Assembly: GCF_000003815.2 (NCBI RefSeq)
Contig: NC_049991.1
Span: 20,698,549-20,762,548 of the forward strand
DNA length: 64,000 bases
Reading direction: 5' to 3'
From: Branchiostoma floridae
Taxonomy: Eukaryota > Chordata > Leptocardii > Amphioxiformes > Branchiostomatidae
A model generated the notes under the pieces. That model was not told where the DNA came from. It worked only from the letters and a program-made list of their open reading frames with translations, and did no database searches. The number at the start of each line of letters is the position of its first letter. Positions within the stretch are counted from its first letter, which is position 1. A program made the position numbers and the translations under genes. Positions 9,720-49,214 of the stretch are shown here, in pieces.

Positions 9720-11030
9720 ATAATTGGCCGATGGTTGTGAGTGAAGCCTCTGTCACACATAGCCGACCATCGCCTCCCAACCTTCTCCAGACCATGGTTG
9801 GGAGTTAAGCCCCGCCACACATAGCCGACCATGGCCTCCCAACCTTCTCCAAACCATGGTTGGTAGTTAAGATCGTGTCACACATAGCCGACCATGGCCT
9901 CCCAAACCTTCTCCAGACCATGGTTGGGAGTTAACCCCTGTCACACATAGCCGACCATGGCCTCCCAACCTTCTCCAGACCATGGTTGGTAGTTAAGATC
10001 GTGTCACACATAGCCGACCATGGCCTCCCAAACCTTCTCCAGACCATGGTTGGGAGTTATTAAGGACCTGTCACACATAGCCGACCATGGCCTCCCGACC
10101 TTTTCCAGACCATGGTTGGGAGTTATTAAGGACCTGTCACACATAGCCGACCATGGACTCTCAACCTTCTACAGACCATGGTTGGGAGTTAAGCCCCTGT
10201 CACACATAGCCGACCATGGCCTCCCAACCTTCTCCAGACCATGGTTGGTAGTTAAGTCCATGTCACACATAGCCGACCATGGCCTCCCAACCTTCTCCAG
10301 ACCATGGTTGGGAGTTAAGCCCCTGTCACACATAGCCGACCATGGCCTCCCAACCTTCTCCAGACCATTGTTGGGAGTTAAGTCCATGTCACACATAGCC
10401 GACCATGGACCCTCAACCTTCTACAGACCATGGTTGGGAGTTATTAAGGACCTGTCACACATAGCCGACCATGGACTCTCAACCTTCTACAGACCATGGT
10501 TGGGAGTTAAGCCCCTGTCACACATAGCCGACCATGGCCTCCCAACCTTCTCCAGACCATGGTTGGTAGTTAAGTCCATGTCACACATAGCCGACCATGG
10601 CCTCCCAACCTTCTCCAGACCATGGTTGGGAGTTAAGCCCCTGTCACACATAGCCGACCATGGCCTCCCAACCTTCTCCAGACCATTGTTGGGAGTTAAG
10701 TCCATGTCACACATAGCCGACCATGGACCCTCAACCTTCTACAGACCATGGTTGGGAGTTATGTAGCACCTGCCACACATAAATGAATAAATGAATAGCC
10801 TACAATGGCCTCCAGACCATGATTGGGAGTTACGCCCCTGTCATGCATAGCCAACCATGGTCAGCCATTGTCTTGTCTAAACCGTGGTTTGTAGTTGGAC
10901 TAGCAATGGCCTCCCCACCTTCTCCAGACCATTGTTGATTGTTACACGCATGTCAATTATAGCTGAGAATGGCCTCCCCTGCCGACCTTCTCCAGACCAT
11001 GGTGTGGAGTTAATCTTGGGCAAGTTTATG
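9720..11030. repeat. ~63-bp tandem array with a 318-bp higher-order repeat
   Basis: The block 'cacacatagccgaccatgg' recurs at 9754, 9816, 9877, 9942, 10005, 10072, 10138, 10201, 10264, 10327, 10390, 10456, 10519, 10582, 10645, 10708 and 10774, with decayed copies to about 11030. Each unit contains two CCATGG palindromes and the inverted pair ccaacc / ggttgg. From 10138 the spacings cycle 63, 63, 63, 63, 66, and the 318-bp block 10138-10455 is repeated at 10456-10773. From 10072 the spacings are multiples of three, which leaves long open frames on both strands; these are by-products of the array. Confidence 0.92.
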
Positions 11031-12595: not shown

Positions 12596-12940
12596 AGAAC
12601 TTGTCAATGGACAATACTTAAAACAATGGTCCATTTGCAACAAATTTATGTCTTGTGGAGTATTCGACTCCCGCTGGCGTTTTAATAGCCTACTGCCTCT
12701 GTACGATTGACTGTAAAACTTGGTGGAAATGACTATAGACTTTACTATACTTCGCTATTGTCATTTTCCTCGATCGCTATGCCCCGAAACGTGTGAATGC
12801 CTGATCATGTAATCTGTTCATTTTCCAATAGGTCCAACATCCGGTCATCCTAATTTTTTTAGGTCCGGTTTTTCTGGACCGGTCCAATAAGAAAAACGGT
12901 TTAGTACCCACCCAGAGCAGCAACACATTCGGTTGTTTAC

Positions 12941-13740
12941 GGCTCACGGAGTCACGTTCTACTTCTGACTCGGTAATGATAACTACCACAGCTCTGTCAC
13001 ACCTGGACTTGGTAATACTTAATTGTTGCACTTTTTCGATACTGATTGTTTATGATAAGGAACTTGCTTAAAATCAAAGTTTCTTTTGTGTGTGATTTGC
13101 AATTGATTTACTATTAATGATACGTACTTGCCAGCTGCGATACAATGATAGGGAAGGGGCCGTTACAGCAACAACGCATCCAGTTAACGGCTCATGGAGT
13201 CACGTTTTACTTCTGACTCGGTAAGGATAGCTACCACAGCTCTGTCACACCTGGACATGGTAATCCTTACTTGTTGCATTTTTTTTTCAATACTGATTGT
13301 GAAGAACTTGCTTAAAATCAAAGTTTCTTTTGTGTGTGATTTGCAATTGATTTACTATTAATGATACGTACTTGTCAGCTGTGATACAATGATAGGGAAG
13401 GGGTCGTTACAGCAACAACGCATCCAGTTGATAACGGCTCATGGAGTCACGTTTTACTTCTGACTCGGTAAGGATAGCTATCACAGCTCTGTCACACCTG
13501 GACATGGTAATCCTTAATTGTTGCATTTTTTTTCAATACTGATTGTGAAGAACTTGCAATTGCTTAAAATCAAAGTTCCTTTTGCGTGTGATTTGCAATT
13601 GATTTACTACTAATGATACGTCCTTAATGTGATACGATATCAGGGATGGGGTAATAACAGCATCACATCCAGTTGTTAACGGCTCACGGAGTCACGTTGT
13701 ACTTCTGTCTCAGTAATAACAACGACTAAAGCCCTGTCAG
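12941..13740. repeat. ~247-bp tandem repeat, about 3.3 copies
   Basis: 'ggctcayggagtcacgtt' recurs at 12941, 13189, 13436 and 13681 (periods 248, 247, 245). Each unit then has 'actcggta', 'gctctgtcacacctggac', 'aacttgcttaaaatcaaag' and 'tgatacgtacttg'. An older copy can be traced upstream at 12420-12500. Confidence 0.85.
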
Positions 13741-41649: not shown

Positions 41650-44600
41650 ATGAGCTGGTGTGTGGTGACCCTTGCTGTCTGCACGTTAGTGCTGCTGGGA
41701 GGAGTGGCCGGACAAACCGACTGCCCCAGCGTCTGTACATGTTCTACAGGTAAGAACATAGCTATATACGACTTCCGTAAAGGCTACCCGAGCCGCCTTT
41801 GTGACCTTAATATTCCTGTTAAGTCAGTTATTCATCACTCTTTGTGATCAGTTGAGCTGGTCTCAATCATGATATTTCTGACTTAGGGAGAAGAGACACT
41901 GTTTCATTCGTTTCCATGTAAGTTTTAACCACCAAATACGTTCAGTGCCCAGTGGTCTCTTGGTCATGCACTGAGCAAGAAAAGGAACACAAAACAAACG
42001 AAGAAACATACATGTAAAGGGGTCTGAGGATTTATTAGCTTCAGTTTACCGCTCCACCGCGCAATAACTGTCTCCCGTAACTTTTTTGATTTTCACCTAC
42101 GAACTCCTGCCCCACTCAGACCACAATGCTTTATTAAGGGAACAGCTCGAAACACTATGCTTAGCCTATATTTGCAAACTTCTTCTAACTGTCCGTACTT
42201 TTATTGCTTTGAAGTGTTGTCGAGTTATGTTTACTTGCACATTATAGCCTAGGAAAAGGAAAGTGATCATATACACACAACAGGACGGGATGTGTATTTT
42301 GGAGATAAGAAAACCAAATAGGTACAGAACTGTTGTCGTAAATTCAAATAAGAACCAAGTAATTGATAATAAGCCACAAAAGGGGACAGTAGATTATATA
42401 TTGACAAGGATTTATGTGCGCTTGTCAAAATGTTCGATACTAGCTAAAGGCTAAGAGAGGACCTTTTGCAATCTTAAACTTGAATACAAACGAATTACAT
42501 GAGGTATAACCGCCACTTGTAACGTAGCAACCGATACATACGTACACAGTCCATTGACAAACAATGTCCTCGGTTAATCGCTAGGTGGCGTATTGAAACA
42601 CAGGGTCGCAAAGATGCGTCTTTTGATCATTACCTTCGCCAAGAAGGTTATATTTTCGGTAGCGTTTGTATGTATGTGTGTGTGTGTGTGTGTCTGTGTG
42701 TGTCTGTGTGTGTGTGTGTGTGTGTCTGTGTGTCTGTCTCTATGTGTGTGTTTATGTGTGTTTGTCTGTGTGTGTTTATATGTGTGTGTCTGTGTGTGTG
42801 TGTGCAGCGGAACTTCCTGTTTGGATATGTCGTGTTCTGGACATGCTGCAGTAATGATATTTGAACGATAGATAGTTCTTGGAGCTGAAAGTAAGTGGTG
42901 TAAGTCCGGGCCCCCTAGCAACTTCCTACTACTAACCTATAACACTTTGTTATATTTACTTCTCCAGGACAGTTCAAGACGGTGGACTGTGACGCCAGAA
43001 ACCTGACCAGCATTCCCGGTCCGTTGCCTAGCGACGCCATCAACATCTTTCTTGGAAACAACAACATCCAGGAAATCCCGACAGGTTTGTAACTATGGAA
43101 ACACTTTTGAGGTCCATTCAAATAAGAAACTTATTCAGTTGGTAAGAATAAGTGTCCTGCTAGACTTTTGAACATGTTTTCTATATCAACAAAGTGATTT
43201 TCAGTGTATACTTTAATATGCAAATTTTAATTATGTTCTTCCCGACTCCCTAGATGCCTTTAACAGCCTGTCCTCCGTGGTGAACCTGTACCTGAATAAC
43301 AACCCGCTAACTAGTCTCCCACTCGACGCCTTCCGAGGCCTGACCACGCTGCAGAAGTTAGACCTGGGGGAGTGTCAGATCAGCACCATAGAGGACAACG
43401 CTTTCCGCGGACTCACCGAGCTCACGGACCTCACGCTCGACACCAACCAGGTAAGGATTATTCAGGTGTTAGACACTAACCAGGTAAGGGTCAACCAGGT
43501 GTTAGACATCAACCAGGTAAGGGTCAGATCAGCACCATAGAGAACAACGCTTTCCGCGGACTCACCGAGCTCACGGACCTCACTCTCGACACCAACCAGG
43601 TAAGGGTTAACAAGATGTTCTACACTAACCAGGTAAGGGTTAACCAGATGTTGTACACTAACCAGGTAAGGGTCAACCAGGTGTTAGACACCAACCAGGT
43701 AAGGGTTAACCAGATGTTGTACACTAACCAGGTAAGGGTCAACCAGGTGTTAGACACCAACCAGGTAAGGGTCAGATCAGCACCATAGAGGACAACGCCT
43801 TCCGCGGACTCACCGAGCTCACGGACCTCACTCTCGACACCAACCAGGTAAGGGTTATTCAGGTGTTAGACACCAACCAGGTAAGGGTTATTCAGGTGTT
43901 AGACACCAACCAGGTAAGGGTTAACAAGATGTTCTACACCAACCAGGTAAGGGTCAAATCAGCACCATAGAGGACAACGCTTTCCGCGGACTCACCGAGC
44001 TCACGGACCTCACATTTGACACTAACCAGGTAAGGGTCAACCAGGTGCTCTACACCAACCAGGTAAGGGTCGGGAGTAGAACCAACCAGGTAAGGGTCAG
44101 ATCAGCACCATAGAGGACAACGCGTTCCGCGGACTCACCGAGCTCACGGACCTCACTCTCGACACCAACCAGGTAAGGGTCAGATCAGCACCATAGAGGA
44201 CAACGCGTTCCGCGGACTCACCGAGCTCACGGACCTCACGTTCGACACCAACCAGGTAAAAGTTTGGTAGACTAGACCCCTGACTCCCAAGTTCCAAACA
44301 TATACATCAAGTTTAACTTATGTTTTATTCAAGAACGTTTTTCTTCAGACCTCATCATGCTGTTACAAGTATAGTAAAAAAAGCCAGCTCTGCTAAAGTC
44401 AAGCCGGAACAGTTTTTGATTTGTTTGTTTGTTTGTTTGTTTGTTTCACAGATCAAAAGTGTGTCCTTGTCAACATTCCAAGGCCTGCGCAGCCTCAACG
44501 TCCTGAACCTGAGAATGAACCAGCTGACGTCACTTCCGGCGGATGTGTTCGAGTCGACCCTTAACCTCCAGAGCCTGTACATGTCCGATAACCCGTGGGA

Positions 44601-45540
44601 CTGCTCCGACTGCGCTCTCGCCTGGCTTCCAAGGTACGTGCATGGTGCTTCTTCCTTCCTTCTTTCTTCCTCCCTCTTATCCTTCCTTCCTCTTGTCCTT
44701 CCTTCGTTCGTTTCTTCCTTACTTCCAGATTCCTTCCTTCTTTCCCTCCTTCTTTCTTTGTTTCCTTCCATCTTCCCTTCCTTCCTTCCTTCTTTCCCTC
44801 ATTCCCTTTCCTTTTTCCTTTGCTCTTTTAACCTTCAGAGTTCCTTTATTTATTTCTTCTTTCACGACTTCCTAATTTCCCCACCTCCATTTCCTCGTTA
44901 ACTTACATTATAAAGGTCAAGTATCCATCGTTGGTTCTATGAATAAGGGGGGGGGGGGGGCTGAGCACAACCAGTTGATACTCTTGCTTACGTTTCGAGG
45001 TCTATCAGATATCTTCTTCAGAGCTTCTGGCTGGAGTTCTGCTTCTCTGTATTAACAAACCTAGCGACCTTTGGGATTGTGTTCTCGCCGCAAAAACACC
45101 ACCTTCATTGGCTACATATAGCGGCGAGAAGCAGAACTCTAGTTGGAAGCTCTGAGGAAGGTGTTTCATAGACATCGAAACGTAAGCAAGAGTGTGTATT
45201 AATTGGTTGTGTTTAAGATTCCTCGTATATACTTTATTCTACCAACCTGGTGAAATTTTTTCTCGGGAGGATCATGTGTTTCAATATACATGGAAAACTT
45301 TATGAAGAGCCAACGAAGCCTCCTAATGCAGTTCCCTATTCTACCGCCAGGTGGCTCTCGCTGACAGGAGTCTCCCTGGACGCCTCGCGGTGCGCCACCC
45401 CCTCTCTGTCCCAGGGCAGTCTGGTGCGGAACGTCCTGGTCACGGAGTGCCCTGGTCTCGTCAGCTCGGCAGTTACCATGGCAACGCCCTCCACAGCCGT
45501 CATGACGATGTTTCTCACAGTGTTCTTCTTCTTGCTGTGA
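41650..45540 (+). CDS. VLR-like GPI-type leucine-rich-repeat protein, 5 exons
   Basis: Exons 41650-41749, 42968-43084, 43254-43450, 44452-44633 and 45351-45540 (TGA 45538-45540) join in matching phases into 261 residues. Residues 1-21 are a signal peptide. C25, C29, C31 and C41 form an LRRNT cap. Residues 53-187 hold about five to six LRRs of 24 residues (for example [19 protein letters not shown]). NPWDC at 185-189 opens an LRRCT with C189, C192, C213 and C232. The tail (233-261) ends in a hydrophobic stretch ([10 protein letters not shown]), typical of GPI attachment. This is the layout of agnathan variable lymphocyte receptors and of the VLR-like LRR proteins described in amphioxus. A recognition or adhesion role at the cell surface is inferred. 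Exon 3 ends in phase 0 at an LRR boundary, and its last 77 nt plus donor are multiplied in intron 3 (see repeat entry). The acceptor of exon 4 uses a (TTTG)n tract as its pyrimidine-rich region. Confidence 0.88.
42668..42804 (+). repeat. (TG)n microsatellite in LRR intron 1
   Basis: TGTG repeats with TCTG and TATG variants, preceded by the dispersed 'accttcgccaagaaggttat' block. Confidence 0.9.
43374..44255 (+). repeat. Exon-derived minisatellite: tandem splice donors and LRR modules in intron 3
   Basis: Starting at the exon 3 donor, CAG|GT recurs with GT at 43451, 43484, 43517, 43600, 43633, 43666, 43699, 43732, 43765, 43848, 43881, 43914, 43947, 44030, 44063, 44090, 44173 and 44256. Spacings are 33 bp (eleven times), 83 bp (five times) and 27 bp (once). 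The 83-bp unit is the last 77 nt of exon 3 plus gtaagg. It contains an uninterrupted 72-nt, 24-residue LRR module ([10 protein letters not shown]... ending DTNQ). Copies lie at 43528-43599, 43776-43847, 43958-44029, 44101-44172 and 44184-44255; the source is 43379-43450. The 33-bp unit is the last 12 nt of the exon plus 21 nt of the intron. Each module except the third is preceded by a CAG that could in principle act as an acceptor, but no pyrimidine tract lies before it. Confidence 0.95.
44640..44830 (+). repeat. (CTTC/CTTT)n pyrimidine-rich tract in LRR intron 4
   Basis: Nearly pure pyrimidine on the sense strand begins a few bases after the exon 4 donor. It parallels the tract before exon 2 of the upstream gene. 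Confidence 0.85.
44972..45190. mobile_element. Foldback element in LRR intron 4
   Basis: Inverted arms of about 70 bp ('actcttgcttacgtttcgag' ... 'gagttctgcttctc' and its complement) surround a ~75-bp spacer. A 14-G run (44947-44960) lies just outside the left arm. Confidence 0.8.
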
Positions 45541-48559: not shown

Positions 48560-49145
48560 AGTTTCCGCAGTACCTGTCTGACAGGCGCACTTCATGTGAT
48601 GTTTAAATTCTCTTGTGTTCTCTTGTCTGCAATTTTCTGTTTGAAAAATCGTTCATAAATGACAACACCTTAACCTAGTACTTGTTGAAATGTACCAGCG
48701 TGTGGCGTTCTAGAACTATAATCCGTTCAGTTGAATGCCCCGGCCACAGGCATTTTTTAGTATCCACATTACCTGTCTGATAGGCGCACTTCATGTGATG
48801 TTTAAATTCTCTTGGGTCCCTTTGTCTGCAGTTTTCATTAAAAAAAAACGTTCATCAACGACGCACCTTAACCTAGTACTTGTTAAAATGTACCAGCGTG
48901 TGGTGTTTTGGAACTTTTATACGTTTAGATGAATGCCCCGACCACGGGCGCCGTTTACATGTTGCATCCATAGTACTTGTCTGACAGGCGCACTTCGTGT
49001 GGTGTGTGAATTCTCTTGTGTTCTCTTGTCTGCAATTTTCGGTTTGAAAAATCGTTCATCAACGACAACACCTTAACCTAGCATTTGTTAAAATGTACCA
49101 GCGTGTGGTGTTTTAGAACTTTTGTCAGTGCAGATGAATGCTCCG
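48560..49145. repeat. ~200-bp tandem repeat, three copies
   Basis: 'acctgtctgayaggcgcact' recurs at 48572, 48771 and (as acttgtctg) 48975. Each copy continues 'gtgtttaaattctcttg' (or a variant), 'ccttaacctag' and 'aaatgtaccagcgtgtgg'. Confidence 0.85.
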
Positions 49146-49214
49146 GCCACAGGCACTGCTCGTCCCCCATGCACCAGCCGCTGTTACGCGCCGGAGCGGG
49201 ATCCATCCATCCTC

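Follow-up and report, generated by a model that had tools for sequence, protein, structure and literature searches.

Background

Minisatellite-like tandem duplications of exon-intron boundaries have been described in the globin genes of amphioxus, under the name of "mirages", which was first given in the amphioxus Adh3 gene (PMC3087553). According to the sections of the two papers on which we draw here, the globin genes concerned are BflGb6/BflGb9 (PMC3087553, PMC3902484), further mirages are present in TnC and PGBD5 (PMC3902484), and the units measure 10-72 bp in Adh3, 60 and 108 bp in PGBD5, and 150-160 and 157 bp in the globins (PMC3087553, PMC3902484). The same sections report somatic instability at the Adh3 mirage and one gene with 6 units in one haplotype and 3 in the other; the Adh3 data, together with RT-PCR of the globins, are taken there to suggest that mirages leave regular splicing undisturbed (PMC3087553).

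Here we report on a window of 64,000 nucleotides of the Branchiostoma floridae genome (the whole stretch of DNA that was analysed, in whose numbering positions are given), where a gene of LRR receptor-like type harbours a well-formed mirage. Contrary to an earlier note on this DNA, according to which no named system has such a layout, the kind is already known from amphioxus, as the mirages described in the cited parts of PMC3087553 and PMC3902484 demonstrate. In addition, donor arrays are common in the B. floridae genome, beyond the genes of the two mirage papers; a literature search covering titles and the openings of abstracts brought no genome-wide survey of donor arrays to our notice.

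Structure of the array and its host gene

The array comprises 18 CAGGTAA words, with the donor G located first at 43451 and last at 44256, as counted by a script. The spacing from donor to donor is 33, 33, 83, 33, 33, 33, 33, 33, 83, 33, 33, 33, 83, 33, 27, 83 and 83 bp, and the span is 805 bp, in exact agreement with the 18 CAG|GT donors and the 33/83-bp order that the earlier note had reported. All donors but the last, which reads GTAAAA, continue as GTAAGG, and 17 of the 18 are free of any difference from -3 to +6; among the 25 CAGGT words in 43374-44300, 7 lack the following AA. Tandem Repeats Finder assigns to the array or its parts periods of 33, 66, 99, 149, 182 and 248, among others, so that the array is far beyond chance. 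The nesting of these periods is the pattern expected when units and multi-unit blocks are copied together, and it fits the proposal, made at the outset, that the order of the units is a record of unequal exchange.

The units have a clear make-up. Each 83-bp unit consists of GTAAGGGTCAG (11 nt; GTAAGGGTCAA instead in one of the five units) followed by a 72-nt copy that corresponds to exactly one 24-residue LRR; no copy has more than one residue changed. The 33-bp unit, as judged by eye, starts with the first bases of the intron and closes with a diverged copy of the 15 nt in which the exon ends. Thus, the array consists of boundary sequence, and the array words and the gene model bear out the claim that the end of LRR exon 3, together with its donor, forms the repeat unit. 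Three of the properties by which a mirage is recognized are present here: a minisatellite-like tandem repeat inside a gene, a unit that spans an exon-intron boundary together with its splice signal, and origin from amphioxus, in this case Branchiostoma floridae.

Given this, the array is very probably a long mirage produced by tandem duplication and unequal exchange, with donor 1 doing the work. The end of exon 3 (72 nt in the 83-bp units and about 15 nt in the 33-bp units) would have been duplicated in tandem along with the first bases of intron 3, and the copies of the boundary would have been multiplied by unequal exchange, as the unit order and the nested periods suggest. The predicted pairing with the U1 end amounts to -11.5 kcal/mol for CAGGUAAGG, -8.3 kcal/mol for the last donor, and -6.7 kcal/mol for the in-between word CAGGUGUUA; the last donor is perhaps the ancestral one.

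An origin of the array length in faulty assembly, with copies collapsed or expanded, appears most improbable. In a DNA search, the 883-base array stretch has a single match in the 513,431,437-base assembly, where a second haplotype was not found, and one globin mirage was apparently misassembled in the genome draft, as stated in the cited part of PMC3087553; against this, the units differ by base changes in irregular order, which simple assembly stutter would not yield, and such arrays occur at many loci.

The five exons of the host gene (Table 1), when joined via donor 1, yield a clean 786-nt frame with a terminal stop and 261 residues. In the Pfam search, the protein matches LRR_8 in 3 stretches (E 5.1e-35), its LRRNT scores 25.3 bits, just under the cut-off of 25.8, and by eye only one recognizes a stretch that resembles an LRRCT and a tail of hydrophobic residues that may be a GPI signal. 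The top-scoring PDB chains are IGFALS, LRRC15, LRIG1, an LGR4-VLR fusion and VLR A, with no near-identical solved chain among the best 60 of 324 PDB matches. A protein search of the genome returned at least 216 matches; among those listed, the next best after the gene itself belong to other LRR genes and are 33% and 38% identical, so that none offers a sister gene by which the array could be dated.

Table 1. Features of the host gene and of the donor array, in window coordinates
Feature	Position	Strand	Basis
Exon 1; signal-peptide-like start, start of LRRNT (by eye)	41650..41749	+	gene model
Exon 2	42968..43084	+	gene model
Exon 3; end ...LDTNQ, phase 0	43254..43450	+	gene model, ORF list
72-nt exon core, source of the 83-bp units	43379..43450	+	
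Minisatellite ("mirage"), 17 units between 18 donors	43451..44255	+	
Donor 1, GTAAGG; yields the 261-aa ORF	43451..43456	+	
Donor 2, in frame, +11 aa	43484..43489	+	
Donor 3, in frame, +22 aa	43517..43522	+	
83-bp unit 1, GTAAGGGTCAG + 72-nt LRR copy	43517..43599	+	
83-bp unit 2	43765..43847	+	
83-bp unit 3, acceptor-like AG lost (GTCAA)	43947..44029	+	
27-bp unit	44063..44089	+	
83-bp unit 4	44090..44172	+	
83-bp unit 5	44173..44255	+	
Donor 18, GTAAAA; adjoins unique intron sequence, weaker predicted U1 pairing	44256..44261	+	
Exon 4; LRR, LRRCT start by eye; pyrimidine-rich acceptor	44452..44633	+	gene model
Exon 5; rest of LRRCT by eye, hydrophobic C-terminus, stop	45351..45540	+	gene model

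The window contains other tandem repeats as well. Tandem Repeats Finder reports a 63-bp repeat with 16 copies and a 318-bp higher-order period at 9731-10761 and a 199-bp repeat with 2.9 copies at 48564-49150, and at 12935-13716 there are 3.2 copies of a 244-bp unit, with CTCGGTAAGGATAG in two of them; beside this last, GGTAAGG-bearing array no coding exon is evident by eye. In the assembly at large, an mNeonGreen query hits 68 places with GFP-type exons, the best of which are 77-88% identical; for one such exon, the best PDB matches are the lanFP10A and blFP proteins of lancelets, in keeping with an amphioxus genome.

Coding consequences and donor use

When computed as simple extensions of exon 3, the first three donors lead to complete proteins (261, 272 and 283 residues, in that order), whereas donors 4-18 all lead to a stop after residue 167. 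The use of donor 2 or 3 would thus add 11 or 22 residues in frame, and the use of any of donors 4-18 in this manner would produce a premature stop and, probably, decay of the message. Since the copies sit on the intron side of the real exon end, the gene would work via splicing from donor 1 to exon 4: the joining of donor 1 (43451) to the exon 4 acceptor (44452) would be the working splice, and the remaining array would leave with the intron. In older splicing experiments with equal donors, the one nearest to the acceptor was often favoured, a preference that predicts a later donor, contrary to the donor 1 reading.

The 83-bp units could also be envisaged as a cassette array, that is, as phase 0-0 exons of one 24-residue LRR each, so that the number of LRRs would be varied by splicing or by copy number. 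Each of the five copies has 72 nt, an open frame and a GT behind it, and an AG precedes four of them; the gaps before the five copies, taken as introns, would measure 77, 176, 110, 71 and 11 nt, and a further 196 nt would separate the last copy from exon 4. Alternative splicing is stated, in the part of PMC10045472 that we cite, to vary a VLR gene of a crab. Yet the putative acceptors are poor (6-8 pyrimidines in 20 positions, compared to 14-16 in 20 in the four real acceptors of the gene), the AG is lost in one copy, and the 11-nt gap is below spliceable length. A further argument in favour of cassettes comes from the changes in the 6 copies, of which 6 are synonymous and 2 non-synonymous although only 50 of the 216 possible changes are synonymous (P 0.003, or P 0.008 with transition bias allowed for), an excess not called for if the array were an entirely passive part of the intron. 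These counts are, however, small, the test was devised after the data had been seen, exchange with the real exon would produce an equal synonymous signal, and in the 18 nt of exon tail that precede 17 of the 18 donors, with 2 synonymous and 9 non-synonymous changes for an expected synonymous share of 0.13, there is no clear excess. We therefore consider the cassette interpretation improbable and retain the long mirage, in which donor 1 would be the site in use.

Donor arrays across the genome

Triples of CAGGTAAG (12-42 bases apart) give 664 matches in the genome versus 9 for the reversed word, and triples of CAGGTGAG give 1160 versus 10. The single CAGGTAAG words number 27,256 compared to 17,430 for the reversed word, a 1.56-fold difference, or 9,826 more. 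Triples of the permuted word CAGTGAAG number 30 and those of its reverse 149; the latter figure, obtained with an unrelated word, indicates that other words reach high counts too, perhaps on account of a repeated family. For the acceptor-type word TTTTGCAG, the triples number 34 versus 18 for the reversed word, and the contrast between donors and acceptors is provisional inasmuch as it is drawn from the triple counts of a single acceptor word.

Because triple matches overlap, there are fewer arrays than matches. By count, 100 of the 664 CAGGTAAG matches make up 18 arrays in some 80 Mb of sequence, which comprises C1, C2 and C3 up to 9.7 Mb, and 100 of the 1160 CAGGTGAG matches make up 14 arrays that all lie between the start of C1 and 5.9 Mb; genome-wide, CAGTGAAG forms about 10 arrays, five of which are one family on C9, and TTTTGCAG forms 11. 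Extended to the whole genome, 18 CAGGTAAG arrays per 80 Mb correspond, roughly, to some 115, so that the excess at the level of arrays is nearer ten-fold than seventy-fold, and about 115 arrays set against the 9,826 surplus single words make, again roughly, about one percent.

Several other donor arrays in the genome also come after coding exons. For 18 arrays (L032, L035, L040, L043, L046 and L068-L080), the stretch before the first perfect donor was translated, and 10 of the 18 upstream ORFs were submitted to Pfam; in the other eight the upstream sequence consisted of N, was truncated, belonged to the array or was unconvincing. Six of the ten matched a family: Aldedh and Ephrin with scores slightly short of the Pfam cut-off, and AAA_8 of dynein, TMEM237, Ephrin_rec_like and HNF-1_N. 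The remaining four had no Pfam match; as the ten had been picked by eye, the proportion of six in ten is no rate. The TMEM237 and Ephrin matches reach within one residue of the ORF end at the donor, the Aldedh match stops about one unit before the donor, and the Ephrin_rec_like match 18 residues before it.

As a tentative generalization, which we regard as possible rather than probable, donors could seed minisatellites genome-wide and acceptors not, be it through the DNA itself, the U1-bound nascent RNA or the duplication-prone GGTRAG word. Roughly a percent of strong donors would then precede arrays of competing copies, and the LRR array would be one example, the modules of which could become exons. 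The genome-wide argument is built entirely on word counts.

A few loci may be mentioned separately. The start of C1 appears to be crowded with arrays (14 of CAGGTGAG and 6 of CAGGTAAG in the first 5.9 Mb), perhaps owing to a subtelomeric excess, C1 having been unevenly compared. A very large donor array, L046 (within G000:C1:1834489-1836634), has 43 perfect CAGGTAAG words in the 3,078 bases analysed, with spacings of mostly 34-35 bp. L073 (G000:C2:9774431) and L077 (G000:C3:58890) have a nearly identical unit, with 35+16 spacing in both, and, as they are located on different contigs, the unit may be dispersed by mobile or duplicated sequence.

Conservation within arrays

Within the window array, divergence among the six 72-nt cores, one of which belongs to exon 3 itself, is 4.2%; the eleven 33-bp units differ on average by 2.3% in the first 8 bases, 22.5% in the middle 16 and 7.7% in the last 9. 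The low divergence of the first 8 bases relative to the middle, as well as the donor columns, which are free of mismatches in 13 interior units versus 0.172 elsewhere, would be expected if the many equal donors were kept by selection as a means of buffering or tuning splicing, with a ladder of +0/+11/+22 residues and with the later donors feeding decay. The comparison across arrays gives little encouragement to this idea. The donor is below the rest in 12 of 18 arrays (1 tie, P 0.017), but compared with the nearest 16 bases it is lower in no more than 8 of the 18 (P 0.28), L043 being dropped from both as having too few units; in the other phasing, 7 of 19 arrays are lower (P 0.087 in the opposite direction, with edge effects possible), and the finding of arrays by perfect donors skews the test towards conservation. 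Regulation by donor choice thus seems quite unlikely to us. Selection on donors across arrays is not claimed, since the two phasings disagree.

In the exon-derived parts of eight arrays, 18 of 52 changes are synonymous versus 10.6 expected (P 0.015), an excess that is only a hint because the test is post hoc and does not allow for transitions; without the window array, the figures are 16 of 41 versus 9.1 (P 0.014). Copies with more than 25% mismatch had been dropped from this codon-position test (2 of 12 in L035, 5 of 13 in L069 and 1 of 18 in the window array). Taken together, the conservation of the units and the synonymous bias hint that the copies have exchanged sequence with the real exon or are used now and then, and fall short of proof of selection.

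Implications and comparison with known systems

The locus is a natural test of the choice of 5' splice sites, inasmuch as one transcript would contain 17 donors that are identical from -3 to +6. The genome-wide excess of donor arrays, in turn, converts an anecdote of a few genes into a measurable quantity and makes it testable what starts minisatellites at amphioxus 5' splice sites and whether such arrays contribute to the origin of new introns and exons.

In comparison to the published mirages, the array described here interleaves units of mainly two lengths (33 and 83 bp), has identical donors from -3 to +6 in 17 of 18 cases, and holds one whole LRR module in its long unit. As in the AGGT model of intron gain, at least in the outline considered here (PMC4974935), a coding sequence with AG|GT is duplicated in tandem and provides raw material for an intron or exon; unlike in that model, the array repeats an existing boundary. 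The host protein, with its caps assigned partly by eye, appears to share the signal peptide, LRRNT, 24-residue LRRs, LRRCT and hydrophobic end with the VLRs and with the amphioxus VLR-like Bf66946, as the latter is presented in the cited part of PMC4731796. In contrast to the somatic assembly of VLRs, variation at the host gene would be a matter of DNA copy number or splicing.
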